A stretch of 64,000 nt of DNA from positions 1 to 64,000 of the forward strand of contig JAAWBS010000016.1 in assembly GCA_022792815.1 (NCBI GenBank), read 5' to 3'. Within the stretch, counting starts at the first letter, position 1, and each line of letters starts with the position of its first letter. Shown piece after piece: positions 10,598-48,953 of the stretch. The notes beneath the pieces are model-generated. The model was not told the origin of the DNA. It saw nothing but the letters and a program-made list of their open reading frames with translations, and made no database searches. Made by a program: the position numbers and the translations under genes. The stretch comes from Hungatella sp. Its GTDB lineage: Bacteria > Bacillota > Clostridia > Lachnospirales > Lachnospiraceae.

Positions 10598-10635
10598 GAT
10601 ATGACTTTATCACAGCCTTGTCTTTTTGTCAAGAG

Positions 10636-12041: not shown

Positions 12042-12781
12042 GACAGGTCCTCAGCCTCCCCTGTTTCACCAAGGATGGGAAGATACCGTGCCAGTTTCTC
12101 CTCGGATGTGTTGACCACCAGCTCCTGGGGGAAACGGATCTCATCCAGGAGGGCGAGGGCCCTCTTGTGGTTGCCCGCATCCGCGGCGCTGTGGGCGTCG
12201 CTTCCTATAATAATGGAAACCTGATAGCGGACGCACAGATCCAGCATGGTCAGGTAGCAGTCTTTAGCGCCTTTCCGGGCCGACAGAGGGTGGAAGGAGC
12301 TGTTGTTGACTTCCAAAAGTTTGTGGTGGCAGGCCGCCGCAGCCACTAAGGTGTCATAGTCCACCGGGTATCGGCCGTCGTCCGGATGCCCGATGATATG
12401 GATGAAGGGGTTTTCTATAGCTCCCAGGAGAGCGGAGGTGTTCTGGGCAGCGGTTCCGGGAGTCAGGCAGGGGGGATGGAGGCTGGCAATGGCATAGTCC
12501 AGACGGCCTAAGAGGGACTCTCTTAAGTCCACATGGCCCTCAAAGTCCACGATGTTCAGCTCGCAGCCCATGAGAAGCCGGATGCCGTACAGGTGTCTCG
12601 GAATCGCCTTGAAGTTGGAGAAATAGAATTCGTGGCAGGTACCGGGCATGGAAGGGGCGTGATCGCTGGATCCGAACACCTTCATGCCGGCTTTGGCGCC
12701 GGCCTGGACCATCTCGTAGAGTGTGTTGTAGGCATGGCCGCTGGCGCTGGTGTGAGTGTGAAGATCGATGATATCATTCAT
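12038..12781 (-). CDS. PHP-domain metal-dependent phosphoesterase (YcdX-like)
   Basis: A 247-residue hydrolase of the polymerase-and-histidinol-phosphatase fold. Metal-ligand motifs are 'DLHTHTSASGHA' at the N-terminus, 'GSSDHAPSM', 'MGCELNI', 'IIGHPDDG' and 'IIGSDAHSA' near the end. Family members remove phosphate from small phosphoesters; the natural substrate here is unknown. The start at 12781 gives the family's usual 'MNDIIDLHTH' beginning; a longer in-frame start at 12832 lacks a good ribosome site. It is the first gene of a two-gene unit with the LysR gene. Confidence 0.87.
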   Translation of the reverse strand: MNDIIDLHTHTSASGHAYNTLYEMVQAGAKAGMKVFGSSDHAPSMPGTCHEFYFSNFKAIPRHLYGIRLLMGCELNIVDFEGHVDLRESLLGRLDYAIASLHPPCLTPGTAAQNTSALLGAIENPFIHIIGHPDDGRYPVDYDTLVAAAACHHKLLEVNNSSFHPLSARKGAKDCYLTMLDLCVRYQVSIIIGSDAHSAADAGNHKRALALLDEIRFPQELVVNTSEEKLARYLPILGETGEAEDLS

Positions 12782-12883
12782 AATCGGCTCTCTTTTCTGT
12801 GTATACTTTGTGTTTTCTTCAATATAACACATTTTTTTCGAGAAAACTATAAAAATTATTATGTAGAATAGGAAAAAATATAG

Positions 12884-14391: not shown

Positions 14392-16188
14392 ATGAGAAGG
14401 ATACTGGGTGATACCGGACAGATGCTCCGGTTTAATTGGAAAAATCTCATGTTATTCCATGTGGGATATCGGCTGGCAGCTGCAGCAGTCTATGTGCAGC
14501 TGCTGGGCTTTTCTATGGAATTTTCCCTGAGAAGGGCGGGTTACAGCTATCTGACTCTGGAAAATGCAGCCAGGTATTTCTTAAGCCCCTGGACTCTCCC
14601 TCTGCTGGCCCTGCTGGCTGCGGTCGGACTTGTGCTTCTGATGGTGGAGGCGGGAGGTCTGACCGCAGCTTTCTCGTCCAGCATTTATTCTCTTAAGATG
14701 ACGCCTCTTGAGATCTTGACCCAGGGGATCCGCAGCAGTGCCCAGCAGATTGAACGGAAAAACTTCGGCCTGTTCGCGGTGGTGGCAGCGGATTTTTTTG
14801 TGTTGAATCTGGTGTGTATCTACCGGACGCTGACCCACGTAAAGCCGGTCAATTTCGTGATCCGGGAGCTGTCAGGCCGCCCGTTTCTGTACCCTGCGGT
14901 GATTTTTTTTACGTTCCTCTGCATCGCCGCGGTGATTCCTGTGTATTATGTGTTCCATGAATGCATGATCGAGCAGAAATGTTACCGGGACGGGAAGATA
15001 AGGAGCAGAGAGCTTCTTAAGGGCAGGTATGTACAGACGGTGATGAGAGTGGTGTGTCCCCAGATTTTCCTCATCGGCGCGGCGGCAGCGGTCTATGGGG
15101 CGCTGGTGGTGGTGATGGCCGTGTTCGCCGTGGTTTTTGTGCAGAGGGATCTGCAGACTGCGTTTCTTCTGCGGGCCGCGGACTGGGGAGAGTGGGTGGT
15201 GATGGCGGGTGTAAGCCTGATATCCGCCCCGGTGTATTTTGCAGGCCTGACGGTTCAGTATTATCGGTACGGGCATAACCAGATTGGAAGAGAACAGTTT
15301 TTTGCTGTGAGAAGCGGCGGACTTTCCAGGAGACACGGCCTGCTGATCCTGGCTTTTGCCGGGCTTGCAGGAGGCTTAGGGCTTTTAGACGGAGCCCTCA
15401 ACGGCAGCTTCCTGGCCAGCTCCCTGGCGGTGCAGACGGAGATTACGGCTCACAGAGGAAGTTCTAAGACCGCTCCGGAGAACACACTGGCCGCCCTGGA
15501 GGCGGCGGTGGAGGAGATGGCGGACTGGGCGGAGATCGATGTGCAGGAGACTCTGGACGGGGTGGTGGTGGTGTGCCATGACTGGGATTTAAAAAGGGTC
15601 TGCGGTGTGGACAGACGCGTGTCTCAGCTGACATGGGAAGAATTGAAAAACCTGGACGCGGGAGCTTGGTTTTCCGTGGAGTACGCGGGGGAGGGAATCC
15701 CCTGTCTTCGAGATGCCATGGAGTATGCCAAGGGAAAGATCAAGCTGAATATTGAGATGAAGTACTCCGGTGCAGACAGTGAGCTTCCCGAGAAGGTACA
15801 GAGGCTGGTGGAAGAGTATGAGATGGAGGAACAGTGTATCCTCACCAGCACCAGTTTGGACTATTTAAAAAGGGTGAAGGAAAAGAATCCCCAGATCCGC
15901 ACCGGACATATCGTCCCTGCGGCCTATGGGAATTATGATATGGATGAGTGGGTGGATGTGATCAGCATCCGCTCCGGGTTCGTCTCCGAGAGTTTTATAA
16001 GAAGAGCCCATGAAAACGGAAAAACCGTCCACTCCTGGACGGTCAACGACAAAAAGGAGCTGGAGCGCATGCGGGTGCTGGGGGTGGACAATGTGATCAC
16101 CGACGTGCCCCTGCTGGCCCGGGAGATCCTGTATCGGGAGGAGGCTGCGGAGAGCCTTCTGGAATATCTGCGGATGATGTTCAGTTAG
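14392..16188 (+). CDS. Membrane glycerophosphodiester phosphodiesterase
   Basis: Hydrolyses glycerophosphodiesters to glycerol-3-phosphate and an alcohol. The 598-residue protein starts with about 340 residues containing several hydrophobic membrane segments. A C-terminal GDPD TIM barrel follows, with His354 in '[14 protein letters not shown]', Glu381/Asp383 in 'AEIDVQ' and His396 in 'VCHDWDL'. Two Gly/Trp-rich ends ('[11 protein letters not shown]') are typical of the family. Placing an N-terminal membrane domain before GDPD is a known Firmicutes arrangement. It starts 3 bases after the alarmone synthetase stop, so the two are translationally close. The phospholipid or teichoic acid substrate is not known. 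Confidence 0.9.
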
Positions 16189-35905: not shown

Positions 35906-35929
35906 GGCGGCAGATTCAGGAGTTTGTCA

Positions 35930-35958
35930 TTGACAAAAGATATTATGTATGATATTAT
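35930..35958 (+). promoter_or_regulatory. Promoter of the phosphoesterase/ABC cluster
   Basis: TTGACA at 35930-35935, a 17-base spacer and TATTAT at 35953-35958. It lies 168 bases before the PHP gene start; the leader in between is AT-rich at first, with the Fur-like box directly downstream. Confidence 0.8.
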
Positions 35959-35967
35959 CAAAATAAA

Positions 35968-35982
35968 TGATAATAATAATCA
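35968..35982. promoter_or_regulatory. Near-consensus Fur box
   Basis: TGATAATAATAATCA matches the 7-1-7 Fur consensus TGATAATNATTATCA at all but one defined position. It starts 9 bases after the -10 element, where a bound repressor would block the polymerase. The regulator could be Fur or another family member. Confidence 0.6.
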
Positions 35983-36126
35983 TATTTTGATAGTATTAAA
36001 CAATATATGCGGAAAAGAAAGGGAGAGAAAGACTATTTCGATCAATAAAAGATCGGAATGGGAACAGGAATCGTATCACGGCTGTCGTCAGAGGGAAGGC
36101 TGCGGCGGCGGAGAGAGGAGGAAGAG

Positions 36127-36921
36127 ATGTTTGATTTCCATATGCACTCGCAAGTTTCGGCGGACAGCAAAGCCAGACCGGAAGATATGGTGGCGGCAGC
36201 CGAGGCGTGGGGATTGAGGGAGATCTGTTTTACCGATCATCTGGACTGTAAAGTGGGACGGCCGGAGACCAATGTGTTCACCCAGGAGGCCTACGAGGAG
36301 GCCTACAGAGACCTTTCCTCAGACAAGCTTAGAATTCGCTTCGGCATGGAATTTGGGATGCAGCCGGACAACAGGCAGCGTTTTTTGGAGGAGACGGGAA
36401 AGCGGAAGTACGATTTCATCATCGGTTCTGTACATACCATCGAGAATAAGGGCGTGTACCGTGAGGAGTACTGGAGGGGAAAGACCCGGAGAGAGGCCTA
36501 CACCAGGTATCTGGAGGAGATTCTCTCCTGTCTGGAGGTACATGAGGATTTTCACGTGCTGGGTCACCTGACCCATCCCACGAAATCGCCAAGCAACACA
36601 GGGAATGTCCCGTATACCTTGAGCGAGTACGGGGAACTGACCGAAGAGATTTTTCGGCGCCTGATCCATAAGGGCATCGGCCTGGAGGTAAATACCAGCG
36701 GAATTCGCTCCAGCGGTCAGCCCCTGCCGCCTCTGGAGTTTGTCAGGCAGTATGTGGAGATGGGCGGAGAGATCATCACCGTCGGTTCCGATGCCCACAA
36801 GCCGGCCCATGTGGGAAACCATATCCGGGAGACCTTAAAGGCTCTGGGAGATCTCACGCCGTGGATCGTCGTATTTGAAGAAGGAAGGCCGATGTACTAC
36901 AAGATCGATTCGCTGTGGTGA
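36127..36921 (+). CDS. PHP-domain phosphoesterase (HisJ/histidinol-phosphatase family)
   Basis: A 264-residue metal hydrolase. Ligand motifs are 'FDFHMHSQVSADS' at the N-terminus, 'ICFTDHLDC', 'RFGMEFGMQ', 'FIIGSVHTI', 'HVLGHLTHP' and 'ITVGSDAHKPAHVG'. The family includes HisJ histidinol phosphatase and cyclic-phosphate phosphodiesterases. No other his gene is near; instead it heads a cluster with a phosphodiesterase, a TIM barrel and a sugar ABC importer. A role in phosphoester breakdown in that pathway is therefore more likely than histidine synthesis, which is inference. AGGAGG lies upstream of ATG 36127. It may be iron-regulated through the Fur-like box. Confidence 0.85.
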   Translation: MFDFHMHSQVSADSKARPEDMVAAAEAWGLREICFTDHLDCKVGRPETNVFTQEAYEEAYRDLSSDKLRIRFGMEFGMQPDNRQRFLEETGKRKYDFIIGSVHTIENKGVYREEYWRGKTRREAYTRYLEEILSCLEVHEDFHVLGHLTHPTKSPSNTGNVPYTLSEYGELTEEIFRRLIHKGIGLEVNTSGIRSSGQPLPPLEFVRQYVEMGGEIITVGSDAHKPAHVGNHIRETLKALGDLTPWIVVFEEGRPMYYKIDSLW

Positions 36922-36947
36922 AGGGGTTAATGAAAAGGAAGGGGAAC

Positions 36948-38495
36948 ATGATGAAGAGAGCAGCCGATGAACAGGGAAGGCCGCCTCTGTCGGTGGCCTC
37001 CTGGACCCGCGAGCGGGGGGGGATGTGCGGCAGAGACGTAAGGTGGCGGTTGGAGCCGGAGCGGGGGATTTTCACCGTATCGGGATTGGGCCCCATGGAG
37101 GACTATGAAGAGGAACGGGCAGTGCCATGGCACAGGGGCAGGCAGAAGATCAGGACGGTCATCATCGAGGATGGGGTCACCGAGGTGGGAGATCAGTGTT
37201 TTCGGAACTGCCGGGAACTGACTGTACTGCGCATGGCCCCTTCTGTGGAGATCATCGGGGCGGACAGCTTTCGGGGGTGTGAGAAGATCACAAGGCTGGT
37301 TCTGCCCGGCAGGCTGAAGGCCGTGAGTCCGGGGGCATTTGCAGGGTGTGTAGGACTTAAGACCGTGTATATGCCAAAGAGCATAGAGTCCGTGGAGGAA
37401 AGCGCCTTCGGCGGGGATGAGAATCTGACGGAGGTGTTCTATGAAGGGACCGAGCGCCAGTGGAGAGAGGTGCTCATCAGCTGTTCCTGTATGAACAATG
37501 AGAGCCTTATCAGGGCTATCCTCCGTCCCTCCGGCCACCGGGAGGAGGCCAAAGGGGAGAGCGGGGGAAAGAGGCGGGATGGGGAAAGACCCGGACAAGG
37601 TCTAAGAGACGTGATCTGTCAGGTGAGAGAGGCCTTTCAAAAGGGCGGGGACGGAAGACTCCATATCCTGCTTCTTGCCCTGAGGGCCACAGGTGTGACC
37701 AGCAAGACCGGAGACTGTACCTTTCTTCTCTTCCCCGGGGGAACTACCATGATGATCGATGCCGGGATTCCTGAGTGCGGAGGCCAGGTCACCGGTTTTC
37801 TGGAAGCAGTGGGTGTGAAAAATCTGGACTATTTTGTTCTGACCCACGCCCACAGCGACCACATCGGAGGAGGAATGTCCCTTCTGGGCTATTTATCCGA
37901 GTGGGGCGGCAGGATCGGCAGGTATTATCACATCGGCTATTACAATAAAGTGACCGAGGTGGCTTTTGGGCAGTCTCTGACAACGTGGGGGACTGAAGTC
38001 TGCAGCGATGTGGCGGAGGGAGACCGGTGGGAGATCGACGGTGTGGACGTGGACGTCCTGAACCCGGATGAGGACAGGCGGGTTTTCTCCGACAATCCCA
38101 TGGAGGGAGTCAACAACCTGTCGATCGCTCTGCGGTTTACCTATGGACAGTGCAGATATCTGACTGCCGGGGATCTGTATGTGTCTCAGGAGCGGTGGCT
38201 GGCGAAGAGATACGGGGAAGGGCTGAGAGCCGACGTGGTCAAAGCCAGCCATCACGGACTGCCCACCTCCAGCTGTGAGGAGTGGCTGAAGGCTGTCTCT
38301 CCAAGGGTGCTGGTGGCATGTACCGATGACCTGGGCTGTACCAAGGTGATCCGACGTGCCCGCAGTGTGGGAGCGGACTATTACTGTACCGGAATGGACG
38401 GCATCATCGCTGTGGCCATGGAGCGGGACGGGAAGTGGGAGATCGCCAGTGAGTATGACGACGTGAGGATGAGAAAGTGGAGGGGAGAATCATGA
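36948..38495 (+). CDS. Leucine-rich-repeat (LRR_5) / metallo-beta-lactamase fold fusion protein
   Basis: A 515-residue protein of unusual make-up. Residues about 65-175 hold BspA-like repeats of about 23 residues ('VTEVGDQCFRNCRELTVLRM', 'VEIIGADSFRGCEKITRLVL', 'LKAVSPGAFAGCVGLKTVYM', 'IESVEESAFGGDENLTEVFY'). After a charged linker a ComEC-like metallo-beta-lactamase domain follows (about 240-505) with 'VLTHAHSDHIGGG', 'TAGDL' and 'KASHHGLPTSS'. There is no signal peptide or membrane helix, so it is probably cytoplasmic. The MBL domain is likely a hydrolase of phosphodiesters; the repeats may bind a partner. ATG 36948/36951 follows an AAGGAAGGGG site. The next gene overlaps its stop. Confidence 0.8.
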   Translation: MMKRAADEQGRPPLSVASWTRERGGMCGRDVRWRLEPERGIFTVSGLGPMEDYEEERAVPWHRGRQKIRTVIIEDGVTEVGDQCFRNCRELTVLRMAPSVEIIGADSFRGCEKITRLVLPGRLKAVSPGAFAGCVGLKTVYMPKSIESVEESAFGGDENLTEVFYEGTERQWREVLISCSCMNNESLIRAILRPSGHREEAKGESGGKRRDGERPGQGLRDVICQVREAFQKGGDGRLHILLLALRATGVTSKTGDCTFLLFPGGTTMMIDAGIPECGGQVTGFLEAVGVKNLDYFVLTHAHSDHIGGGMSLLGYLSEWGGRIGRYYHIGYYNKVTEVAFGQSLTTWGTEVCSDVAEGDRWEIDGVDVDVLNPDEDRRVFSDNPMEGVNNLSIALRFTYGQCRYLTAGDLYVSQERWLAKRYGEGLRADVVKASHHGLPTSSCEEWLKAVSPRVLVACTDDLGCTKVIRRARSVGADYYCTGMDGIIAVAMERDGKWEIASEYDDVRMRKWRGES

Positions 38496-39808
38496 GCAAG
38501 AGAAAAATCATCGTGTTTTCCTGCGATGCCATGGTCTATGAGGATATCCGGTACCTGCTCACAAAGCCGTCCTTCTGCGCTCTGTACAAGAAGGGGGCCA
38601 TGGTGAAGAGGATACGGACGGTCTATCCATCGGTCACCTACACCTGCCATACCTCCATGTCATCCGGCTGCTATCCCGACAAACACGGCGTGACAGGCAA
38701 CATGAAGTTCATGCCGGGCCGGCTGAAACCGATGCCGTGGCAGTGGTTTGCCGATGCCATCAAGTGTCCGGATATCTTTACCGCAGCCAAGAGAGCCGGA
38801 CTTTCCACGGCGGCGGTCTTCTGGCCGGTTACCGGCAATCATCCGGATATCGATTATCTGGTGGATGAGTACTGGCCCCAGTCCAAGGAGGACACCAAGG
38901 AAGCCTGTTTCCTTCGGTCCGGCACCACAAGGGAAGTGTATGATACCTGCGTGGCACCTCACATCGGTCCCGTGACGGTGAGGACCCACCCGGACACAGA
39001 CCAGTTTCTGGTGGACTGTGCCTGCGAGATGATCCGCCATTACCGGCCGGATCTGCTGATGCTGCACACGGCGGACGTGGACTCCTACCGGCATCACACC
39101 GGCCTGTTTACCGAGCAGGTGAAGCGGGGCCTGGATGATACCGAGAGGTGGTTTACTCAGATCATCCGGACCACGAAGGAGGCGGGGGTGTTTGAGGAGA
39201 CCAACTTTTTTCTGGTGTCGGACCACGGACAGATGGAGATCGTCCGAAGCTTAAAACCCAATGTGATGCTGGCCAGAAACGGGCTGATCCGGGTGGACCG
39301 GGCGGGGGAGGTGGCGGACTGGCAGGCCTACTGCCAATCCAACGGGCTTTCGGCGCTGATCCGTCTGAGGGACCCGGGAGACCGGGAACTGTGGAAAAAG
39401 ACCTATGAGCTGCTCTTAGCTCTTCAGAGGGAAGGCGTCTACGGCATCAGCCGGGTGTACACCAGGGAAGAGATCCGGGAAAAAGAACACTTGGACGGGG
39501 ATTTCTCTTTTGTCATCGAGACAGACGGATACACCTCGTTTTCCGAGGATTGGAGGGAACCTCTGATCAAGGAGTTGGATTTGTCCGACTACCGTCTGGG
39601 GCGGGCGACCCCCGGACATCACCCGGACAAAGGACCTCAGCCGATCCTGTTTGCCTTCGGACCGGATATCAGGGAAGGTGTGGAGGTGGAGGAAAAGCCT
39701 GTGGTAGACGAGGTGCCTACTTATGGGAAGATTCTGGGGCTTTCCCTGCCCTCGGCGGACGGGCAGCCTATAGACGAGATCATAAGAGACAGGGGGAAAG
39801 AAGGATGA
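38492..39808 (+). CDS. Alkaline-phosphatase-superfamily phosphodiesterase (nucleotide pyrophosphatase/NPP type)
   Basis: A 438-residue two-metal hydrolase. Asp12 in 'VFSCDAM' and the nucleophile Thr51 in 'YPSVTYTCHTSM' are followed by 'GCYPDKHGVTGN', 'HTADVDSYRHHTG' (metal Asp and His), 'LVSDHGQ' and 'GHHPDKGPQP'. This is the NPP/phosphoglycerate-mutase-like set and acts on phosphodiesters or phosphonates. No signal peptide is seen, so the substrate is probably imported first, perhaps by the ABC system encoded downstream. The ATG overlaps the stop of the LRR-MBL gene, and the next gene overlaps in the same way. Confidence 0.88.
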   Translation: MSKRKIIVFSCDAMVYEDIRYLLTKPSFCALYKKGAMVKRIRTVYPSVTYTCHTSMSSGCYPDKHGVTGNMKFMPGRLKPMPWQWFADAIKCPDIFTAAKRAGLSTAAVFWPVTGNHPDIDYLVDEYWPQSKEDTKEACFLRSGTTREVYDTCVAPHIGPVTVRTHPDTDQFLVDCACEMIRHYRPDLLMLHTADVDSYRHHTGLFTEQVKRGLDDTERWFTQIIRTTKEAGVFEETNFFLVSDHGQMEIVRSLKPNVMLARNGLIRVDRAGEVADWQAYCQSNGLSALIRLRDPGDRELWKKTYELLLALQREGVYGISRVYTREEIREKEHLDGDFSFVIETDGYTSFSEDWREPLIKELDLSDYRLGRATPGHHPDKGPQPILFAFGPDIREGVEVEEKPVVDEVPTYGKILGLSLPSADGQPIDEIIRDRGKEG

Positions 39809-40665
39809 ACCACTTGGGATTTGCCACGTTTGGTGTGGACTATCGAGAATATGACAGGCTGAGGGAGATCCTGGAGGAGTGCCGCTTTGCCGGGCTGGGG
39901 CCGGAGCTGTCCATCTATACGAAGACATCCCGGTATCCTGATTTTATGGAGGAGCTGGCCCGGAAGCGGGAGATGTTTGCACCCTACTATGTGACCTTTC
40001 ACGGACCTTACAGCGAGGTGGAGGCCACCAGCCCTCCGGGCAGTCAGGCCCGTCAGGTGATGGTGGAGGCGTACCGCCAGGCCTTCCGGTGCTGCAGAGA
40101 TTTCTCTGCACACACCATCGTCATGCACACCAACCAGAAGGTTCACCTGACAGGTGATGACGGAGGACTTCGGGAGAACTGTATATCTGTCATCCGTGAG
40201 CTGGGGGAGATGGCAGGGGAGCTTGGAGGAGGAGTGAGGCTTCTGGTGGAAAATGTGGGGATCCCTAAAAAGGACAATGTGCTGTTTCCCATGGAGGAGT
40301 TTATCCGCATGTTCGATGAGCTGCCGGAGGACATCGGCTGTCTCATCGATGTGGGACACGCATTTATCAATCGATGGGATATGGAGGAAGTGATCAGAAG
40401 GCTTAAGGGCCGGATCGCCTCCTACCACCTCCACAACAACGACGGGGACAGAGACTCCCATCGCATGCTGTTTGAGGATCACCTGTATTACGGCCGGGAG
40501 GACTGGAGGAGGCTGTTTGCCGTCATGGAGGAATATACGCCTGGGGCAGACTGGATTCTGGAATATTCGCCTAAAAATCCCATCACACCTAAAGCGATAG
40601 CTGGTGAGATCCGGGAGATTTTAAGACTTGCAGAGATGAGGCCGGGCCAACATGCCGTGGGGTAG
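39805..40665 (+). CDS. Sugar phosphate isomerase/epimerase-type TIM barrel
   Basis: A 286-residue protein of the xylose-isomerase-like/AP-endonuclease-2 superfamily. Metal-ligand patterns are visible as 'YYVTFHGPYSEVEA', 'TIVMHTNQ', 'RLLVENVG', 'GCLIDVGHAF', 'ASYHLHNNDGDRDSH' and 'WILEYSPK'. Members are isomerases, epimerases or endonucleases; the sugar-type ABC genes next door favour a sugar or polyol. The exact reaction is unknown. The ATG overlaps the phosphodiesterase stop (ATGA) and the binding-protein gene follows after 44 bases. Confidence 0.82.
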   Translation: MNHLGFATFGVDYREYDRLREILEECRFAGLGPELSIYTKTSRYPDFMEELARKREMFAPYYVTFHGPYSEVEATSPPGSQARQVMVEAYRQAFRCCRDFSAHTIVMHTNQKVHLTGDDGGLRENCISVIRELGEMAGELGGGVRLLVENVGIPKKDNVLFPMEEFIRMFDELPEDIGCLIDVGHAFINRWDMEEVIRRLKGRIASYHLHNNDGDRDSHRMLFEDHLYYGREDWRRLFAVMEEYTPGADWILEYSPKNPITPKAIAGEIREILRLAEMRPGQHAVG

Positions 40666-40709
40666 AGGGACGGCTTGGATAAAATTTATTTCAAACGAGG
40701 AGGAGAAAC

Positions 40710-42104
40710 ATGAGAAGATCAATGTGGAAGAAGAGTCTGGCGGCGATATTAGGTCTGTCTATGGTGTTTGTATCTGCCTGCGGACAGTCCCGGGAAAGCA
40801 GCGCGGGGGAGACGAAAGCCCAGGCCGTCCAGACGGCCGCTGCCCAAGCCTCTGAGACCAAAGGGGAAGCGGAGAAGGAGGTGGCCCAGTCACAGTCCCA
40901 GTACCCGGAGCAGGTGACGGAACCTATCACCATCGAGTTCTGGCACACCCGGGGATCCGGAGCCAACGGAGACAATATGACCGCCATGATCGAGGAGTTC
41001 AATGCCTCCAACGGGTTGGGAATTACGGTGGAAGGGGTCTATCAGGGCTCTTATGCAGAGACCCTGTCCAAGATCACGGCGGCTGTGGGGGCAGGCGATA
41101 ACCCGGCAGTGGCCATCGTGGCTTCCGGCGGAATCGAGGCGCTGGCCGACGCGGGAGTGCTGGCTGACATGATGCCCTACATGGAGAGAGACGGCTTTGA
41201 CTTAGACAATATCCCGGAAGGTCTTCAGTACTATATGACATGGGAGGAGGGAAAAGCCCTGGTGGTTCCCTATCTGGTGTCTTCTCCGATCCTGTATTAC
41301 AACAAGGCCCTGTGGCCGGAGGCTCCGGGGACGATCCAGGAACTTTATGCCGGCGCTAAGAAGATTTATGCGGAAAAGGGAGTTCCGGGCTGGGGTCTGA
41401 TTATGGATGTGGGATATTTACAGAGGCCTGTCATCATCACCCTGGGCGCCAACGGCCTTTTGACCGCAGACGGATTGACGGCCGACGGGCTGGAGAACGG
41501 GGAGATGCGGACCTATCTGACAGACTGGCAGAACGGAGTCAAGGAAGGCTATATCGTGCCTCCCGAGGTGACGGATGCCTCCAATGCCATGCAGCAGCTG
41601 TTCTACCAGGGACAGGTAGGCATGTTCGGCGCCACTTCGGGAAACCTGAAAAATGTGATGAAGCTGAGCGCGGAAAACAATGTCGATCTGGGAATAGGCA
41701 CCTATGTGGGTTATGACGGACCCTGTGCCTCCATCGGCGGCGGCAGCCTGGCCATCTTAGAGTCCAATAACAGTCAGCAGGAGAAAGCAGCGGCCTGGGA
41801 ATTTATCAAATTCCTGTATTCTGATGAGAATATCGTGAGACTCCACTCGGAAACCGGATACCTGCCCATGACCTACAGTGCCGCCGAGAGCCAGGAGTGT
41901 CAGGAATTCTGGGGACAATACCCGGGATTCAAGACCGCCTTTGACCAGTTAAGCTTTGGAAAGTACAACGAGTGGTCCGTCTACGGGGCAGAGTGGAAAG
42001 CCAAGGTCTTGGAGGCTATGCAGTACGTGATCGTGACCCAGGAGATGACGCCCGACGAGGCGGTAGAGTTCTTAAAAACCCAGGTAAGTGTTGTGTTCCC
42101 CTAA
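40710..42104 (+). CDS. Carbohydrate-type ABC transporter substrate-binding lipoprotein
   Basis: A 464-residue family-1 binding protein (UgpB/MalE group). A signal peptide ends in a lipobox ('FVSAC', Cys about residue 22), then a Glu/Ala/Gln-rich linker, then the two-lobed domain ('EPITIEFWHTRGSGANGDNM', 'WEEGKALVVPYLVSSPILYYNK', 'GYLPMTYSAAES'). The overall form resembles glycerol-3-phosphate and glycerophosphodiester binders, which would fit the phosphodiesterase upstream, though ligand residues cannot be judged by eye. GAGGAGGAG lies upstream of the ATG. Confidence 0.9.
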   Translation: MRRSMWKKSLAAILGLSMVFVSACGQSRESSAGETKAQAVQTAAAQASETKGEAEKEVAQSQSQYPEQVTEPITIEFWHTRGSGANGDNMTAMIEEFNASNGLGITVEGVYQGSYAETLSKITAAVGAGDNPAVAIVASGGIEALADAGVLADMMPYMERDGFDLDNIPEGLQYYMTWEEGKALVVPYLVSSPILYYNKALWPEAPGTIQELYAGAKKIYAEKGVPGWGLIMDVGYLQRPVIITLGANGLLTADGLTADGLENGEMRTYLTDWQNGVKEGYIVPPEVTDASNAMQQLFYQGQVGMFGATSGNLKNVMKLSAENNVDLGIGTYVGYDGPCASIGGGSLAILESNNSQQEKAAAWEFIKFLYSDENIVRLHSETGYLPMTYSAAESQECQEFWGQYPGFKTAFDQLSFGKYNEWSVYGAEWKAKVLEAMQYVIVTQEMTPDEAVEFLKTQVSVVFP

Positions 42105-42135
42105 GCGGCGGGGACCAGGAAGAAGGGATGTAGCG

Positions 42136-43194
42136 ATGGGAGAAATCGTATTTAAAAACATAGGGAAATCATTTGGTGACGTAAAGGTCATCGAGAACCT
42201 GAATCTGACCATCAGGGACGGAGAGTTTACGGTTCTGGTAGGGGCTTCCGGCTGCGGCAAGACCACTCTTTTGAGGATGATCGCCGGCATTGGGTCTGCT
42301 ACCTCCGGGGAGCTTTTCATCGACGGAGAGGAGATCTCCGATGTTCCTCCGGGGAAGAGAGGGATTGCCATGGTATTCCAGAACTATGCGATCTACCCCA
42401 CTATGACCGTGAGGGGAAACATTGAGTACGGGCTGAAAAATGCCAGAGTGCCGAAGGCAGAGAGGGACAGGCTGATCCGGGAGGTGGCCGAGACCGTGGG
42501 ACTTACCCCTTATCTGACCAGAAAGCCCAGTGAGTTGTCAGGAGGACAGCGGCAGAGGGTAGCCCTAGCCAGAGCCATGGTGAAAAAACCGAAGATCTTT
42601 TTGCTGGACGAGCCTTTGTCCAATCTGGATGCCAAGCTGAGGGTGGCTATGCGCACGGAGCTGATCGAGCTGCATCACCGATTAAAGACCACCTTTGTGT
42701 ATGTGACCCATGACCAGACCGAGGCCATGAGCATGGCGGACACCATCATCCTGATGGAGAGCGGAGAGATCCGGCAGCAGGGGTCGCCGGAGGAGATCTA
42801 CGAGAATCCGGACAATGTGTTTACGGCCCGCTTCATCGGTGCGCCTCCCATGAATGTCTACCGTATGAGGGGAAGGCAGGAGTTTGTCGGTTATCGCCCG
42901 GAGAGCATCCTGCTCTCCCGGGAGGAGACCCGGATGCTGTATCAGAGAGAGGCCAGGATTTTGACCAGGGAGATGTTGGGGTCGGAGATTCACTATAAAC
43001 TTGTGCTGAAACAGGATGGGGAAGAACCGATTACCATCATGGGAAAGAGCAGCCAGAAGCAGTTTGAAGTGGATGAGACGGTGTATGTCAATGTGGACCG
43101 GGAGCATCTGTATTTCTTTGACGGTCAGGAGAATCGGATTCGGGACGAGGCCGGGCTGAAGGAGTGCTGTGCCATGATCCAGGGAGGGCTGTGA
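42136..43194 (+). CDS. Carbohydrate-type ABC transporter ATP-binding protein (UgpC/MsmK group)
   Basis: A 352-residue ATPase. Walker A 'GASGCGKTTLL', Q-loop 'VFQNYAIYPTMTV', signature 'LSGGQRQRVALARAM', Walker B 'FLLDEPLSNLDAK', H-loop 'VTHDQTEAM', and a C-terminal TOBE/OB regulatory domain ('GYRPESILLS' onwards). ATG 42136 begins 'MGEIVFKNIGKSFG', the normal family start. The permease ATG overlaps its stop (TGATG). The presence of a dedicated ATPase inside the operon suggests a self-contained importer. Confidence 0.94.
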   Translation: MGEIVFKNIGKSFGDVKVIENLNLTIRDGEFTVLVGASGCGKTTLLRMIAGIGSATSGELFIDGEEISDVPPGKRGIAMVFQNYAIYPTMTVRGNIEYGLKNARVPKAERDRLIREVAETVGLTPYLTRKPSELSGGQRQRVALARAMVKKPKIFLLDEPLSNLDAKLRVAMRTELIELHHRLKTTFVYVTHDQTEAMSMADTIILMESGEIRQQGSPEEIYENPDNVFTARFIGAPPMNVYRMRGRQEFVGYRPESILLSREETRMLYQREARILTREMLGSEIHYKLVLKQDGEEPITIMGKSSQKQFEVDETVYVNVDREHLYFFDGQENRIRDEAGLKECCAMIQGGL

Positions 43195-44069
43195 TGAAGG
43201 AGAATACAAAGAGAAAGCTGTTTCCCTACCTGCTGATTCTGCCGTCTGCCCTGTTTTTGCTGGTTTTCACGATGTATCCCTGTATTTATCTGGTGCGGCT
43301 GAGCTTTTATGAGTACAATCTGCTGAAACCGCCCAAATGGATCGGATGGAAAAACTATGTGGATCTGTTTACCAGAAACGTGGACTTTGTCGTGGCCTTG
43401 AAGAATACGGCCATCTATACCGCAGCTATTGTGACGATCCTGATTCTGTTCGGACTGATTCTGGCGGTGTGCCTCCAGCGGGAGTCCAGGATCAACTCTT
43501 TTGTGCAGAGAGCCATGTTTATCCCCCATATCGTCGGTATGCTGTCGGTGGCTATGATTTTTCAGTGGATGTTCAACGAGAAAGGGCTGTTCAATGCAGT
43601 TCTTGCCATCTTTCGTCTGCCGGGTCTCAAGTGGCTCAATAGTTCGGACACGGCCCTGATCTGTATCATCATCGTGGCTGTGTGGAAGAGCATCGGCTAT
43701 TACGCCCTGATTCTTCTTTCGTCCTTAAAGGCCATTCCTGCGGAGATCAATGAGGCTGCTCTGCTGGATGACGCGGGGCCTGTGAACCGGTTCTTTCATA
43801 TATTTATGCCTATGCTGTCCCCTCAGATCTTCTTTCTTCTGGTCACCATCACCATCAACTCCTTCAAGGTGTTTGAGTCCGTGAGACAGATGACCAAGGG
43901 CGGCCCCGGCAACTCCACCAATGTGTTGGTGTACTATATCTACAATTATGCGTTTAACTACAACAAATACGGGTACGCGGCAGCGGCCGGAGTGGTGCTG
44001 CTTCTCATTATGATCGTTATGACGATCCTGTATTTCAAGGCTATGGGGAAACGGGTCCACTATCAGTAG
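43194..44069 (+). CDS. Carbohydrate-type ABC transporter permease, UgpA-like
   Basis: A 291-residue membrane protein with six hydrophobic segments and the EAA coupling motif 'EINEAALLDDAGPVNRFFHIFMP' near residue 185. The start 'KLFPYLLILPSALFLLVFTMYPCIYLVRLSF' is typical of the MalF/UgpA group. It overlaps the ATPase stop by one base and the second permease follows in the same strand. Confidence 0.92.
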   Translation: MKENTKRKLFPYLLILPSALFLLVFTMYPCIYLVRLSFYEYNLLKPPKWIGWKNYVDLFTRNVDFVVALKNTAIYTAAIVTILILFGLILAVCLQRESRINSFVQRAMFIPHIVGMLSVAMIFQWMFNEKGLFNAVLAIFRLPGLKWLNSSDTALICIIIVAVWKSIGYYALILLSSLKAIPAEINEAALLDDAGPVNRFFHIFMPMLSPQIFFLLVTITINSFKVFESVRQMTKGGPGNSTNVLVYYIYNYAFNYNKYGYAAAAGVVLLLIMIVMTILYFKAMGKRVHYQ

Positions 44070-44085
44070 GAAGGAGGAGGAAGAG

Positions 44086-44934
44086 ATGAGCAATCCGAAC
44101 ATGATCCGAAAAGCCGGGCAGATGACAGGGCGGGCGGCGGGCATAGCCTTGAAGCTGTTTTTGGCCCTGATATTTATCTTCCCGTTTTACTGGATGATCT
44201 CCACGTCGTTTAAGACTTATGCAGAGTCGGAACAGTTTCCCCCCTCTCTGTATCCCCATACCTGGACGCTGGAGGGGTATCAGACCGTGTTTGAGGGGCT
44301 GGAACTGGGGATGTATCTGAGAAACTCTCTGATCGTCATCGTGGCCATCATCATTTTGCAGATGGCGGTGTCGGTTCCCGCGGCCTACGCCTATGCGGTA
44401 TATGAGTTTAAGGGGGCCGGGATTTTGTTTGCCATGGTGCTGGTGGCGTTTATGATTCCCTCCCAGGTTACCTTTATCGCCACTTACATCATGTTTTCCA
44501 AAATGAAGCTCCTAAAGACCTTCTGGCCTCAGATTCTGCCCTTCGGAGCCAACGCCTTCGGAATCTTCATGATGAGGCAGCATTTTAAACAGATTCCGGC
44601 GGAGCTTATTGAGTCTGCCAGGCTGGACCAGGCCGGCGAGTTCAACATCATGATCCATATCATGCTTCCCACGGCCAAGTCCACGGTGGTGACCACCTGT
44701 CTCTTGAGCTTTATCAGTCACTGGAATGCCTATTTCTGGCCGCTGGTCATGACCAACTCGGAGGAGGTGCGGCCCTTGACCATCGCCATCTCCAAGCTGA
44801 AAGACCTGGATTTAGGGGTGGTGTGGCCGACGATTATGGCGGGAAACGCTTTGCTGGTGGTGCCTATGCTCCTGCTGTTTTTGGCTGCCAGCAGGAAGAT
44901 CATCCAGTCTATGGCCTACCGGGGGATGAAATAA
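44086..44934 (+). CDS. Carbohydrate-type ABC transporter permease, UgpE-like
   Basis: A 282-residue partner permease with six membrane segments. It shows 'FIFPFYWMISTSFKTYAE' near the N-terminus and the EAA motif 'ELIESARLDQAGEFNIMIHIMLP' near residue 170. It has AGGAGG upstream and is the last gene of the transporter, followed 129 bases on by the DeoR gene with its own promoter. Confidence 0.92.
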   Translation: MSNPNMIRKAGQMTGRAAGIALKLFLALIFIFPFYWMISTSFKTYAESEQFPPSLYPHTWTLEGYQTVFEGLELGMYLRNSLIVIVAIIILQMAVSVPAAYAYAVYEFKGAGILFAMVLVAFMIPSQVTFIATYIMFSKMKLLKTFWPQILPFGANAFGIFMMRQHFKQIPAELIESARLDQAGEFNIMIHIMLPTAKSTVVTTCLLSFISHWNAYFWPLVMTNSEEVRPLTIAISKLKDLDLGVVWPTIMAGNALLVVPMLLLFLAASRKIIQSMAYRGMK

Positions 44935-44950
44935 GGCGTGGGAGCATGTC

Positions 44951-44979
44951 TTGACAGCAAATTTTAAATTTGATATGAT
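44951..44979 (+). promoter_or_regulatory. Promoter of the DeoR-family gene
   Basis: TTGACA at 44951-44956, a 17-base spacer and TATGAT at 44974-44979. It separates control of the regulator from the transporter operon. Confidence 0.8.
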
Positions 44980-45062
44980 AAAGACCGAGGTTTTTCAGAA
45001 TCTGGAAAAAAGTGGAAGACAGGCAGGGTTACGGCAAAATTTTGAGACAGAGAGACAGAACG

Positions 45063-45842
45063 ATGAAAATTGCAGAGAGACAGAGTGGGATTGTACAGCT
45101 TGTAAATGAGAGAGGCTCCATATCTTTTGCGGAGATCCAGAGCAGCTTTCCGGATGTGTCGGCGATCACTCTGCGGAGAGATATGGAGGCGCTGGATAAG
45201 CGGAACGAGATTATCCGCATCCACGGCGGCGCGAAATCTATCAATTATATTATACATACAGACGAGGGCTACTGTAACAGGATTATCCAAAATGCGGAGC
45301 AGAAGCAGGGCATCGCCCGGGCGGCCGTGTCCCTTCTGAATCCGCCCATGTCCGTGTATGTGGATTCCGGGACCACGGCTCTGGAATTCAGCAAGGCATT
45401 TCCGGATGACAATTTTTTAGTCTACACCCACGGACTTCACTGCGCAGTGGAACTGAGCAGGCTTTCCAGGCCGGAGATCCATCTGGTGGGCGGAAAGGTC
45501 AGCAGGCTCAGTCTGTCCATCGTAGGTTCCAATGCGATCTACTGCCTGGACAACACCAATTTTGACCTTGTGTTTCTCAGCGCAGGAGGTTATTCCGCCA
45601 ACCGGGGATTTACCTGTCTGGGCGAGGAGGAGTGTTATCTGAGAAAGGCTGTGGTGAAGCGGGCGGAGAAGGTGGTGATGCTGCTGGACTCCAGCAAGTT
45701 CGGGAAGGTGGCCACCTATACCCTGGCGACTCCGGAGGAGATCGATGTGCTGATCACAGACAGAGGGATCGACCAGATGTGGCTGGAGGAGTTTCGTTCT
45801 CATGATATCCGTGTGATGTTCTGTGAGGATTTTGACAGGTAA
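45063..45842 (+). CDS. DeoR-family transcriptional regulator
   Basis: A 259-residue repressor. The N-terminal helix-turn-helix 'ISFAEIQSSFPDVSAITLRRDMEALDKR' region is at about 20-46, followed by the effector domain with 'MSVYVDSGTTALEFSKAF' and 'NFDLVFLSAGGYSANRGFTC'. Members usually respond to a phosphorylated sugar. Position right after the importer makes this the likely pathway regulator. ATG 45063 gives the normal start; a longer in-frame start at 45012 is less likely. A perfect terminator follows at once. Confidence 0.91.
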   Translation: MKIAERQSGIVQLVNERGSISFAEIQSSFPDVSAITLRRDMEALDKRNEIIRIHGGAKSINYIIHTDEGYCNRIIQNAEQKQGIARAAVSLLNPPMSVYVDSGTTALEFSKAFPDDNFLVYTHGLHCAVELSRLSRPEIHLVGGKVSRLSLSIVGSNAIYCLDNTNFDLVFLSAGGYSANRGFTCLGEEECYLRKAVVKRAEKVVMLLDSSKFGKVATYTLATPEEIDVLITDRGIDQMWLEEFRSHDIRVMFCEDFDR

Positions 45843-45846
45843 CAAG

Positions 45847-45871
45847 AGGAGACCATGAAGGTCTCCTTTTT
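45847..45871 (+). terminator. Rho-independent terminator after the DeoR gene
   Basis: GGAGACC at 45848-45854, loop ATGAA, GGTCTCC at 45860-45866, then five Ts. It reaches the stop codon of the convergent ABC ATPase gene. Confidence 0.9.
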
Positions 45872-46643
45872 AGTTCCCGCATTCGATGCTGATCGTGTTG
45901 AAACGCTCCAGCAGATCTTCGATTTTCATGGAGGCTTTCTCTTCTCCGGACTTGTCGATGACAGCCTGCCCCTGGTGCATCATCAGCAGGCGGTCGCCGT
46001 AGTCCACGGCATAGCGCAGGTTGTGGGTCACCATGATGGTGGTCAGCCGCTTGGATTTCACGATCTGGTCCGTCAGTTCCATGATAATCTCGGCGGTCTT
46101 GGGGTCTAGGGCTGCGGTGTGCTCATCCAGGATCAGAAATTCGATGGGAGTCATGGTGGACATGAGAAGGGCCATGGCCTGCCGCTGCCCGCCGGAGAGG
46201 ACCCCGACCTTCACATGGAGTTTGTCCTCCAGGCCCAGGCCCAGAGTTTTCAGGGCCTCCCGGTAACCGTCGACTTTCCTTTTGTCGGTGCCGCGGCGGA
46301 GGTTGAAGGGCTTGCCCTTGTTGTCGGCCAGTGCCATATTTTCCAAGATGGTCATGTGGGGGCAGGTGCCCATGGCGGGATTCTGATAGACACGGCCGAT
46401 GCGCCTTAACCGCTTGAATTCCGGCATGTGGGTGATATTTTCGCTTCCTATATAAATGGTGCCGGAATCCAGAGGGATGCTGCCGCAGATGATGTTGAGC
46501 ATGGAGGTCTTTCCGGAACCGTTGCTTCCTACCACGGAGACAAACTGACCGTTCTCGATGGACAGGTTAAAATCCTCAAACAGGCACATCTCGTTGACCG
46601 TTCCTGCGTTGTAGTATTTGTTGATATCATTCAGTCTAAGCAA
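45870..46643 (-). CDS. ABC transporter ATP-binding protein, probable tryptophan importer
   Basis: A 257-residue ATPase. Walker A 'VGSNGSGKTSML', signature 'LSGGQRQAMALLMSTM', Walker B 'FLILDEHTAALDPKTAE' and H-loop 'MVTHNLRYAV' are visible. The family (with PF04392-type binding proteins) moves amino acids such as tryptophan or tyrosine. It overlaps the permease gene by 8 bases and is the last gene of a T-box-controlled operon whose specifier codon is UGG, so tryptophan or a precursor is the probable cargo. Confidence 0.9.
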   Translation of the reverse strand: MLRLNDINKYYNAGTVNEMCLFEDFNLSIENGQFVSVVGSNGSGKTSMLNIICGSIPLDSGTIYIGSENITHMPEFKRLRRIGRVYQNPAMGTCPHMTILENMALADNKGKPFNLRRGTDKRKVDGYREALKTLGLGLEDKLHVKVGVLSGGQRQAMALLMSTMTPIEFLILDEHTAALDPKTAEIIMELTDQIVKSKRLTTIMVTHNLRYAVDYGDRLLMMHQGQAVIDKSGEEKASMKIEDLLERFNTISIECGN

Positions 46644-47556
46644 GGCCCTTCACCTTCTTTCTGCGCTCGGTGCTGACTACCAGGATGATCAGGAACAGGA
46701 TCGAGGTGATCAGTTTTAAGTCATTGGCCTCCATCCCCATGGAGATAGCCAGGGAAATACAGGCTTTGTACACGACAGAGCCTGCGATGACAGCCGTGGT
46801 AGGGCGGACTTGGGGAAGCCCTAAGCGGCTCGGGAGAGAGACTCCGTTTTCCGGGCACAGAAGCTGAATCCCGATGATCACGCTGGCAAGGCCGATGACG
46901 ATGGTTCCGGTTCCCACGGAGATCTCAAAAAATCCTTTGTGCTGGCAGTAGATGGACCCGGCTAAGGCGGAAAAGCCGTTGGCGATGGCCAGTCCCAGGA
47001 TCTTCACCATGCCCTTGTCCTTGGCCAGTGAGGTGACCAAGGCCTCATTGTCCCCCACGGCCCGCAGCAGGTATCCGGATCTGGTGTTCAGATACAGGTC
47101 CAGGAGTACCTTACAGATGAGGATGATGAGAAACAGGATCAGTACCATCAGGTAAGGGGACAGGAGGGCCGGTATCACATCCGCCAGGAAGGGGTTTTCA
47201 AAGATCGTGTCCTGATTGAACACGGGCACATTGGCCCTGCCGCCTGCCAGGCGCAGGTTCACGGAGTACAGGCCGGTCATGACGATGATGCCGCTTAACA
47301 GGTCCCGGACCTTTAATTTCACATGGATGAGTCCGGTGACGCAGCCGGCCGCGGCCCCTGCCGCGAAGGATAAAATCAGAGTCAGTACCGGGTCCATGCC
47401 TGCCAGGAGAGCGGAGGCGGTCAGTGCCGCCCCCATGGGGAATGTGCTGTCCACAGACAGGTCGGGAAAATCCAGGATCTTGTAGGTGATGTAGACTCCC
47501 AGCGCCATGACGGCATAGATGAGTCCTTCTTCCAAAACGCCTAAAATCAGTGTCAT
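46636..47556 (-). CDS. ABC transporter permease, probable tryptophan importer
   Basis: A 306-residue membrane protein of the branched-chain-type permease superfamily. It has about eight hydrophobic segments, with 'MALGVYITYKILDFPDLSVDSTFPMGAAL' near the N-terminus, a sequence characteristic of TrpY-like permeases. It is in the middle of the three-gene minus-strand operon, 18 bases after the binding-protein stop. Confidence 0.9.
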   Translation of the reverse strand: MTLILGVLEEGLIYAVMALGVYITYKILDFPDLSVDSTFPMGAALTASALLAGMDPVLTLILSFAAGAAAGCVTGLIHVKLKVRDLLSGIIVMTGLYSVNLRLAGGRANVPVFNQDTIFENPFLADVIPALLSPYLMVLILFLIILICKVLLDLYLNTRSGYLLRAVGDNEALVTSLAKDKGMVKILGLAIANGFSALAGSIYCQHKGFFEISVGTGTIVIGLASVIIGIQLLCPENGVSLPSRLGLPQVRPTTAVIAGSVVYKACISLAISMGMEANDLKLITSILFLIILVVSTERRKKVKGLA

Positions 47557-47574
47557 AGTAATCGTAAGCCTCCG

Positions 47575-48585
47575 CTATTGTGTGATTTCCGCAAACATTT
47601 CCTTGGCAGAAGAAGTCAGGTCTTTTGGGAATGTGAGCCCTAAGTTCTCGGCCACCTTTGTGTTGCCGTAGAAGGCGGCTTCCTCGATCACTTCAAAATT
47701 CATCTCACTCGCTTTCTTTTCTCCCCTTAATACGGCGGCAGCCATCCTGCCGGTCTGTTTCCCCAGCTCGATATAGTCCAAGCCCATGGCGGCCAGACAG
47801 CCGATCTTCACCTGCTCGATCTCGCTTCCGAAGACGGGGATGTTTTTCTTCGCCGCCTTGTCTAAGATCACAGGAAGGGAGGCCACCACCGTGTTGTCCG
47901 TCAGGTTGGTTAGACAATCCACCTTTTCTAAGAGGGAATCCGCGGCGAGGGGCACGTCTGCCGTGGCAGAGATGCCGGTGTCCACAATCTCAAATCCGTA
48001 ATCCGGGGCTGCTGCCTTGTACTCCTCGATGGTGGACAGGGAATTGACCTCACTGGTGGTGAACAGGATCCCGATAGTCCTGGCCTCAGGAAGGATGGCC
48101 CGGATCATCTCCAGCTGCTGTCTGACAGGCAGCTTGTCGCTGGTTCCGGTGATCTCGCCTACAGGAGCGCCGTCAGAGCCTGCCAGCTCCGCTGCCACAG
48201 GGTCTGTGACTGCGGTGTAGATCACAGGGATATTCTGCTTTTTGCCGACCCCGTAAGCGGTCTGCGCCATGGGAGTGGCGATGCCGCAGATCAGGTCCAC
48301 CTTCTGGGCTGCGAAGTTGGTGACGATCTGACTGGCCATCCCCCCGTCAGCCTGGGAATTCTCATAGAGAACCGTTAAGTTTTCTCCCTCCACGAATCCC
48401 TCCTCGGCCAGTCCTAAGAGGAATCCCTCCCGACAGTTGTCGAGGGAGCCGTGGGCGGCAAACTGTCCGATGCCGATGGTGTAGGTCTTGTCCTTGGAAT
48501 CTGAGGAGCCGGAGCAGCCGGCCAACAGGGCCGCGGCTGCGGCTGCAAGGAATAAAGTTTTCGCTTTCATAGATTTTTTCATCAT
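47575..48585 (-). CDS. ABC transporter substrate-binding lipoprotein (TrpX-like, PF04392 type)
   Basis: A 336-residue extracellular binding protein. The signal peptide ends 'AAAAALLAGC' (lipobox) and the domain starts 'YTIGIGQFAAHGSLDNCREGFLLGLAEEGF', followed by 'TPMAQTAYG', 'YTAVTDPVAAEL' and 'AAMGLDYIELGKQTG'. GGAGG lies 5 or 8 bases before ATG 48585 or 48582; an earlier ATG at 48597 overlaps that site. The preceding T-box leader makes expression depend on uncharged tRNA-Trp. Confidence 0.92.
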   Translation of the reverse strand: MMKKSMKAKTLFLAAAAAALLAGCSGSSDSKDKTYTIGIGQFAAHGSLDNCREGFLLGLAEEGFVEGENLTVLYENSQADGGMASQIVTNFAAQKVDLICGIATPMAQTAYGVGKKQNIPVIYTAVTDPVAAELAGSDGAPVGEITGTSDKLPVRQQLEMIRAILPEARTIGILFTTSEVNSLSTIEEYKAAAPDYGFEIVDTGISATADVPLAADSLLEKVDCLTNLTDNTVVASLPVILDKAAKKNIPVFGSEIEQVKIGCLAAMGLDYIELGKQTGRMAAAVLRGEKKASEMNFEVIEEAAFYGNTKVAENLGLTFPKDLTSSAKEMFAEITQ

Positions 48586-48678
48586 AGTGACCTCCATTAG
48601 TTTAGATTTACCCGTTTGGGGTGACCGTATGCGAAATCAAGGGGCTGGACCGTTCTGTCCGTGACTTTCCCGGAAAGC

Positions 48679-48953
48679 AAAAAAGTCTCAAGTATGCAGA
48701 TGCTGCATGCTTGAGACGAATATAATCCGCGGTGCCACTCAAATTGACCATAGGTCCTCTTTTCATATACCAACATATATGCCGCACTGGTAACGGCTGC
48801 GGAGACCGTCAGTCCCTACTGGGCAAAAAGCTGTTGGGGACCGCCCTCAAAAGTCCATTCGGCAATTCCACTCATATCGCATTCACACCCGCAGCGACTC
48901 TCTGAGATGAGAAAGAAAGGCTTACTCCTCTTTTTCAACGGTTTGTTTTATTG
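48679..48953 (-). promoter_or_regulatory. T-box riboswitch with Trp (UGG) specifier and terminator
   Basis: On the minus strand the leader contains the T-box core TGAGTGGCACCGCGG (48727-48741), which pairs with the tRNA acceptor end. Upstream, a specifier-loop pattern GAATGGAC puts TGG at 48855-48857, the Trp codon. A 15-bp terminator stem (48685-48717, arms GTCTCAAGCATGCAG and CTGCATACTTGAGAC) with six Us follows. Uncharged tRNA-Trp would favour the antiterminator and switch on the ABC operon. The TGG choice rests on loop context, as stem I was folded by eye. Confidence 0.87.

Follow-up and report, generated by a model that had tools for sequence, protein, structure and literature searches.

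The binding protein UgpB contacts the phosphate of its ligand through two Tyr and two Ser residues, with Gly, Glu and Arg placed at the hydroxyls of the glycerol. The Tyr and Ser contacts are reported to be strictly conserved in UgpB and in proteins that bind glycerophosphocholine or U3G, while glucose binders do not keep them (PMC12718374). In the agrocinopine (Acc) system of Agrobacterium, a sugar phosphodiester is imported by an ATP-binding cassette (ABC) transporter (PMC4526662); in the XanT/XanP system of Xanthomonas, the sugar phosphodiester xanthosan is taken up and then hydrolyzed by a dedicated phosphodiesterase (PMC12807533); and CbiR is a phosphodiesterase of the PF01261 superfamily (PMC7733943). 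Here, a cluster of nine genes is compared with such systems. It lies in a 64,000-nucleotide stretch of a Hungatella sp. assembly (3.8 Mb in 73 contigs, ~89% complete), and this whole stretch is called the window. Judging from its sequence, the cluster most likely takes up a phosphate-bridged small molecule and cuts the bridge inside the cell.

The gene cluster and its predicted pathway

An earlier note on this DNA had described, in a single direction, a PHP hydrolase, a fusion of leucine-rich repeats (LRR) with a metallo-beta-lactamase (MBL), a phosphodiesterase of the alkaline phosphatase (AP) superfamily and a TIM-barrel protein, followed by a complete ABC importer (binder, ATPase and two permeases) and a DeoR gene, with neighboring genes overlapping or close. 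This layout was borne out by the open reading frames (ORFs) and by Pfam and NCBIfam profile scans, which gave nine genes in the same direction with the domains below; start codons were assigned from sequence reading.

36127..36921, + strand: PHP hydrolase, HisJ-like phosphatase subfamily (PF02811, 107.7 bits; TIGR01856; ATG start assigned)
36915..38495, + strand: fusion of LRR_5 (PF13306) with a ComEC/CbpE-like MBL (PF00753) in a single ORF
38492..39808, + strand: ENPP/NPP-type (type I) phosphodiesterase, called AP below (PF01663, 131.3 bits; catalytic Thr and metal ligands complete)
39805..40665, + strand: TIM-barrel protein (PF01261) with nine endonuclease IV metal ligands, isomerase-like in the earlier note
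40710..42104, + strand: UgpB-like substrate-binding lipoprotein, with phosphate-contacting Y, S, T, Y
42136..43194, + strand: UgpC-type ABC ATPase (UgpC is its best NCBIfam model; ATG start assigned)
43194..44069, + strand: UgpA-like permease (ATG start assigned)
44086..44934, + strand: UgpE-like permease
45063..45842, + strand: DeoR-family regulator (PF08220, PF00455; ATG start assigned, the ORF opening with GTG at 45012)

The genes overlap by 4-7 bases at the PHP/MBL, MBL/AP and AP/TIM junctions, and the larger gaps through the last permease are ~44, 31 and 16 bases, as calculated from ORF coordinates and assigned starts. The PHP protein scores 118.8 bits with the HisJ family model TIGR01856, above its cut-off of 90.2, and stays below the cut-off of the best histidinol-phosphatase equivalog in NCBIfam (167 vs 321 bits). 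An HxHxDH motif in the LRR-MBL protein and a lipoprotein signal with the lipobox VSAC at the N-terminus of the binder were read from the translations, and the DeoR protein matches PF08220 (HTH_DeoR) with 44.1 bits and PF00455 (DeoRC) with 144.6 bits. No signal peptide was seen by eye in the PHP, LRR-MBL, AP and TIM proteins, and for this reason these four would be expected to act in the cytoplasm.

On balance, we favor an uptake-and-cleavage operon for a small phosphodiester, similar to Ugp, in which UgpQ would be replaced by unrelated enzymes. The UgpB-type lipoprotein would bind a compound that contains a phosphate bridge and pass it to the UgpAE/C-type transporter of the operon, which would import the phosphodiester intact. 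In the cytoplasm, the ENPP-type enzyme would cleave the phosphodiester with two metals and a Thr nucleophile, a second or alternative bond might be cut by the LRR-MBL protein and by the TIM-barrel protein, the latter through a three-metal site of the endonuclease IV type, and the HisJ-like PHP phosphatase would release the last phosphate. The DeoR protein would sense a product, and a Fur box would add iron control. Computation shows the protein families, the phosphate residues of the binder, the catalytic residues of AP, the metal ligands of TIM, the recurrence of a core gene set and a box that is also present at feoAB; from these we infer the phosphodiester nature of the substrate, the order of steps, the assignment of enzymes to cuts, the cytoplasmic location and all regulation.

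Phosphate residues, active sites and conservation

When the UgpB contacts were mapped onto the E. coli protein (phosphate Y65, S144, S270 and Y346; glycerol G307, E89 and R397), the aligned window binder was found to carry Y, S, T and Y at the four phosphate positions, with Thr for the second Ser, and MalE none of the four. All four residues are present in 12/12 AP-linked importers with a UgpC-type ATPase, and in L097; one importer in which no binder was recognised (L066) was left out of the scoring. Controls were drawn from 37 low-identity permease loci, six of which (L091-L094, L099 and L101) carry GDPD and/or MBL genes and were excluded from the control count. The other 31 were fetched on permease similarity alone, and two without a binder (L142, L146) were dropped, leaving 29; second binders in L130 (1/4) and L137 (0/4) were not counted, and L111, found through its TIM protein and scoring 3/4, stands outside this set. 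Ten controls have all four residues and 19 have none or one, the latter being very distant binders in which the aligned columns are possibly off. A GDPD-family gene lies in the fetched stretch of nine of the ten (six strong matches and three at 42-52 bits, the three confirmed as PF03009), while the tenth, L140, has a HAD phosphatase together with a TIM protein. No GDPD gene was seen in any of the 19. The comparison supports the earlier note on this point: the binder keeps the phosphate-contacting residues of UgpB, and importers of this kind accompany phosphodiesterases. The phosphate signature is a better guide to a phosphodiesterase than AP is to the signature; AP as a predictor fails in five loci. 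The Trp clamp of UgpB was dropped as a criterion, its columns having shifted between two alignments.

In AP and TIM, every metal-binding and catalytic residue that was checked is present. AP scores 131.3 bits against a PF01663 cut-off of 23, and D, T, N, D, H, D and H, which we take from family knowledge to be the catalytic Thr and the metal ligands, are invariant in 58/58 sequences, with a further His (H374) nearly so. The TIM protein keeps 9/9 metal ligands of endonuclease IV (numbered as in E. coli Nfo), as do all 17 proteins compared (the window protein, that of L111 and 15 TIM family members). In three E. coli proteins that are isomerases or epimerases (Hyi, UlaE and YcjR), 5/9 ligands are present. 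Because of this difference, the TIM protein may be another phosphodiesterase and not an isomerase. The deoxyribonuclease IV models each match at most 3/16 TIM family members, and the window protein gives no match to the nfo model up to E 0.001.

Relatives of AP were collected by a one-genome-per-species scan of 84,980 species, which yielded 20 loci, and by scans at E <=1e-60 that matched 8 of 200 family genomes, 11 of 26 genus genomes and 15 of 391 class genomes, the own genome being in each of these three sets. Those with names are mostly metagenome-assembled genomes of Clostridia. The matches were partly fetched with flanks and many stretches stop at contig ends, so that neighbor counts are minima. 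Within 8 kb of the 58 AP loci, window included, were found a UgpC-type importer ATPase in 12, DeoR in 11, TIM in nine, an AraM-like dehydrogenase in seven, a ribulokinase-like kinase in six, LacI in five and GDPD in three. The core of AP, TIM, binder, ATPase and permeases recurs in L065 of the same genus, in the order AP, TIM, a lipoprotein without a Pfam match, binder, ATPase, two permeases and a second TIM, and the two binders pair in the tree with support 100/98. Furthermore, AP is directly followed by TIM in L004-L007, and one ORF lies between them in L008. In the 26 genomes of the genus, permease A gave nine matches at >=46% identity and 37 at <=38%; five of the nine have AP at a distance of 5 kb or less and a sixth at 12 kb, while none of the 37 shares a contig with an AP match of the genus scan (Fisher p 9e-5, kinship not corrected). 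The three close permease loci without AP (L095, L096 and L098) all have TIM, and L098 a sulfatase-family gene too.

Mixed hydrolases were also seen elsewhere in the genus. In the window's own genome, L125 contains GDPD, a binder, two permeases, PHP and a CxPxR-bearing enzyme of the AP superfamily that is of sulfatase type; in a congener, L126 has a similar set plus TIM. On contig C18 of the own genome, sulfatase, LRR_5 and MBL are joined in one ORF (L103:8444-11902, - strand) adjoined by TIM, an importer with all four residues and DeoR. The presence of unrelated hydrolases beside a phosphate-signature importer therefore recurs in the genus and is not a one-off.

Some further arrangements involve the same families. 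LRR-MBL is fused to a weak choline-binding repeat in L106:5856-10898 and to a GDSL lipase domain in L102:8204-10849 (- strand) and L108:7357-10035, and GDPD-DUF4996 fusions open UgpB-type importer operons in L125, L126 and L132. Tandem AP genes lie behind DeoR in L016 and L018, with a GDPD gene on the opposite strand. A second recurring AP setting combines an AraM-like glycerol-1-phosphate dehydrogenase with a ribulokinase-like kinase (L063, L069, L033 and L015); the AraM-like protein of L063 scores 210 bits against an NCBIfam cut-off of 413. A link to glycerol-1-phosphate dehydrogenase was set aside, the AraM-like gene occurring near AP in 7/58 loci and not in the window cluster.

Several observations weigh against the uptake-and-cleavage explanation. 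The full gene set is absent from all 57 other AP loci, within the minimal neighborhoods noted above, so that a conserved nine-gene unit is rejected. The earlier note had itself named the lack of such a unit in relatives as a finding against its proposal, although L065 does keep the core. PHP and MBL are near AP in just 2/58 loci each, window included, and in 46/58 no UgpC-type ATPase lies within 8 kb, some stretches being short. AP is found near importers with none or one of the four residues in L035, L038, L064, L073 and L076; two binder-like genes near AP and TIM in L007 score 3/4 and 2/4; L120, among the 0/4 controls, gives a weak match to the AP profile (24 bits); and a TIM with nine ligands adjoins a 0/4 importer in L139. 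AP alone therefore does not mean this pathway. The counts of complete signatures are not independent, since all such binders included in the tree fall with E. coli UgpB in one weakly supported group of 34 (85/87), so that kinship accounts for part of them, and the ten complete controls represent four sequence groups (L122, L123 and L128-L130, 73-98% identical; L125, L126 and L132, 74-82%; L137; L140). By fold, the TIM model is closest to MJ1311 and sugar epimerases in both Foldseek and VIA-align. Finally, the binder retains Gly307 as one of three glycerol contacts; Glu89 is replaced by Ser, and the counterpart of Arg397, in a loosely aligned region, is Lys. Because these two contacts are not kept, the substrate is probably not glycerol-3-phosphate itself, and the leading candidates would be glycerophosphodiesters with another head group, or sugar or polyol phosphodiesters.

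The main rivals of the phosphodiester reading concern the TIM protein and the nature of the substrate. TIM could simply isomerize or epimerize the sugar once this has been freed, as ordinary enzymes of these kinds do, and leave the phosphate to AP, MBL and PHP; we regard this as a genuine possibility, though one that we lean away from. It agrees with the fold rankings and with several epimerase models that match family members, the window protein matching one of them (22.5 bits; cut-off 305). The ligand test (nine vs five) lowers its standing, and the CbiR phosphodiesterase model matches 15/16 members, the highest share of all models, though the window protein is far under the cut-off (42 vs 105 bits in NCBIfam).

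A nucleotide-type phosphodiester (dinucleotide, nucleotide sugar or NAD fragment), whose nucleosides and ribose phosphates the enzymes would salvage, appears unlikely. The match of the binder to UgpB (E 7e-23) is only slightly better than that to the 7c0r series of "sugar ABC transporter" binders (E 4e-20), and we take this series to be the U3G-binding protein of T. thermophilus. Enzymes of the ENPP/NPP type often cut nucleotides, as in structures with AMP. A U3G-binding protein of T. thermophilus is described as close kin of UgpB (PMC12718374). Furthermore, a distant AP relative (37%) in L037:9916-14489 (- strand) is accompanied by an importer, a nucleoside deoxyribosyltransferase and a nucleoside hydrolase, hinting at nucleotide substrates in that AP branch. 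Against this stand the Pfam scan of the window cluster, which contains no nucleoside enzyme, and the sugar or polyol enzymes of other AP clusters: L063 has ribulokinase-like, glycerol-1-phosphate dehydrogenase-like and ribulose-phosphate epimerase genes among the representatives scanned, and L013, L015 and L069 have kinase and/or dehydrogenase relatives near AP by profile. Least probable is an importer for a plain sugar that shares its operon with a separate housekeeping group of hydrolases. The five importers without phosphate residues near AP, the frequent lack of any such importer and the unconserved full set would suit it, but the window binder does carry the residues, AP lies near 5/9 permeases of this group vs 0/37, and the enzyme genes have coding overlaps. 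The import of a phosphodiester, as the earlier note had proposed, thus keeps its footing in the binder residues, the linked phosphodiesterases and the complete AP and TIM residue sets; it loses the conserved full set, two of the three glycerol contacts examined and, perhaps, the isomerase.

Promoter-like sites, palindromes and the Fur-like box

The elements upstream of the operon and of the regulator gene are as follows.

35923..35937, no strand: perfect 7-1-7 palindrome TTTGTCA-T-TGACAAA across the operon -35 box, candidate operator
35930..35958, + strand: promoter-like site TTGACA-17-TATTAT for the operon (11/12 matches)
35968..35982, no strand: Fur-like box TGATAATAATAATCA directly after the -10 box, one mismatch to TGATAATNATTATCA
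44951..44979, + strand: promoter-like site TTGACA-17-TATGAT for the regulator gene (11/12 matches)
44958..44972, no strand: perfect 7-1-7 palindrome CAAATTT-T-AAATTTG between the regulator -35 and -10 boxes, candidate DeoR operator

The two promoter-like sites are the best of the stretch, which has ten in total, moderately above shuffles (6.1 +/- 2.1); terminator-like sites show no excess (six vs 7.6 in shuffles). A separate promoter for the DeoR gene, as had been suggested, is consistent with the second site. The palindrome at the DeoR promoter differs from both palindromes of the operon promoter; a DeoR operator ahead of the whole operon was therefore set aside, and control of the operon by the DeoR protein stays hypothetical.

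The Fur-like box that had been noticed ahead of the cluster was confirmed with a single mismatch to the 7-1-7 pattern TGATAATNATTATCA, which we assume as the Fur consensus. In the window, three sites with <=2 mismatches were observed vs 0.07 expected. The box is likely a real Fur box and is put forward as a candidate. That the box is an AT-rich palindrome arisen by chance, or serves a different regulator as operator, with iron playing no part, is less likely but a real possibility. At <=1 mismatch the whole assembly, as far as complete, has two such sites and the reversed control pattern none; the second site immediately precedes feoB and two ORFs with FeoA domains. Four matches to the FUR family, including a partial one, are present in the genome. 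In favor of that alternative, a second perfect palindrome spans the operon -35 box, and among the relatives scanned no Fur-like box was seen close to AP, the sole further site with <=1 mismatch at an AP locus (L086:13563) being ~3 kb away. Fur control as a general trait of AP clusters was set aside on the same ground.

Elsewhere in the window, a FUR-family regulator adjoins a rubrerythrin gene in a PerR-like setting (9980-11031, - strand). A second PHP-domain protein (12038-12832, - strand) resembles by eye the PHP of L126, and a membrane-bound glycerophosphodiester phosphodiesterase (GPDPase_memb and GDPD; 14392-16188, + strand) lies far from the cluster. A T-box leader (48709-48947, - strand) precedes an ABC_sub_bind / BPD_transp_2 / ATPase operon (45870-48597, - strand), and because of this leader the importer is probably for an amino acid.

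Comparison with known systems

Most likely the cluster is a variation on a known nutrient system, which may be tied to iron supply. If the uptake-and-cleavage explanation is true, imported phosphodiesters in Clostridia would be cleaved intracellularly by interchangeable enzymes of at least two, perhaps three, folds; the four-residue binder signature would make it possible to recognize importers of phosphodiesters among the numerous sugar importers found in gut bacteria; and a group of TIM-barrel proteins now assigned by match to families of sugar isomerases would have to be assayed again for phosphodiesterase activity. The putative Fur box would tie this nutrient to iron supply, a link that is testable and unexpected. 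A bolder form, which we hold improbable, is an iron-controlled pathway in which four unrelated metallo-hydrolases (ENPP, endonuclease IV-like TIM, MBL and PHP) dismantle one imported phosphodiester, and endonuclease IV-type TIM barrels, at present listed under sugar isomerases, make up a so far overlooked class of phosphodiesterases for small molecules, replacing UgpQ beside UgpB-type importers. No description of the cluster, or of TIM-barrel phosphodiesterases beside Ugp importers, was recognised in the openly licensed literature, which is a weak negative.

The single components have known counterparts. AP shares its fold, Thr nucleophile and metal ligands with ENPP6, ENPP7 and bacterial NPP, but differs in its ~15-20% identity to them in structural alignments and in that no signal peptide was seen. 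The TIM protein belongs with CbiR and endonuclease IV in PF01261 and has the full endonuclease IV ligand set, although it stays under the CbiR cut-off, lacks an nfo match and has no cobamide gene among the nine genes.

As a pathway, the cluster would resemble the Acc system in the ABC import of a sugar phosphodiester and its cleavage inside. The cleavage genes of Acc act inside the cell, its binder is different and its hydrolase is of the GDPD type. XanT/XanP would be alike in uptake of a sugar phosphodiester followed by dedicated hydrolysis, but Xanthomonas uses a TonB-dependent outer-membrane transporter and a 2H phosphoesterase (PMC12807533). Closest is UgpBAEC-UgpQ of E. coli. The cluster is not filed as a member because two glycerol contacts are lost, scores with each of the four models (UgpB, UgpA, UgpC and UgpE) stay under the cut-off (100 vs 411 bits for the binder, 389 vs 432 for the ATPase), and UgpQ is missing, none of the nine proteins matching PF03009 (GDPD/UgpQ) and ENPP-type, endonuclease IV-like TIM, LRR-MBL and PHP proteins standing instead. 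In conclusion, the cluster would work like UgpBAEC-UgpQ, with a binder of the UgpB group bearing four phosphate residues, a UgpC-type ATPase, UgpA/E-like permeases and a phosphodiesterase gene in the operon.

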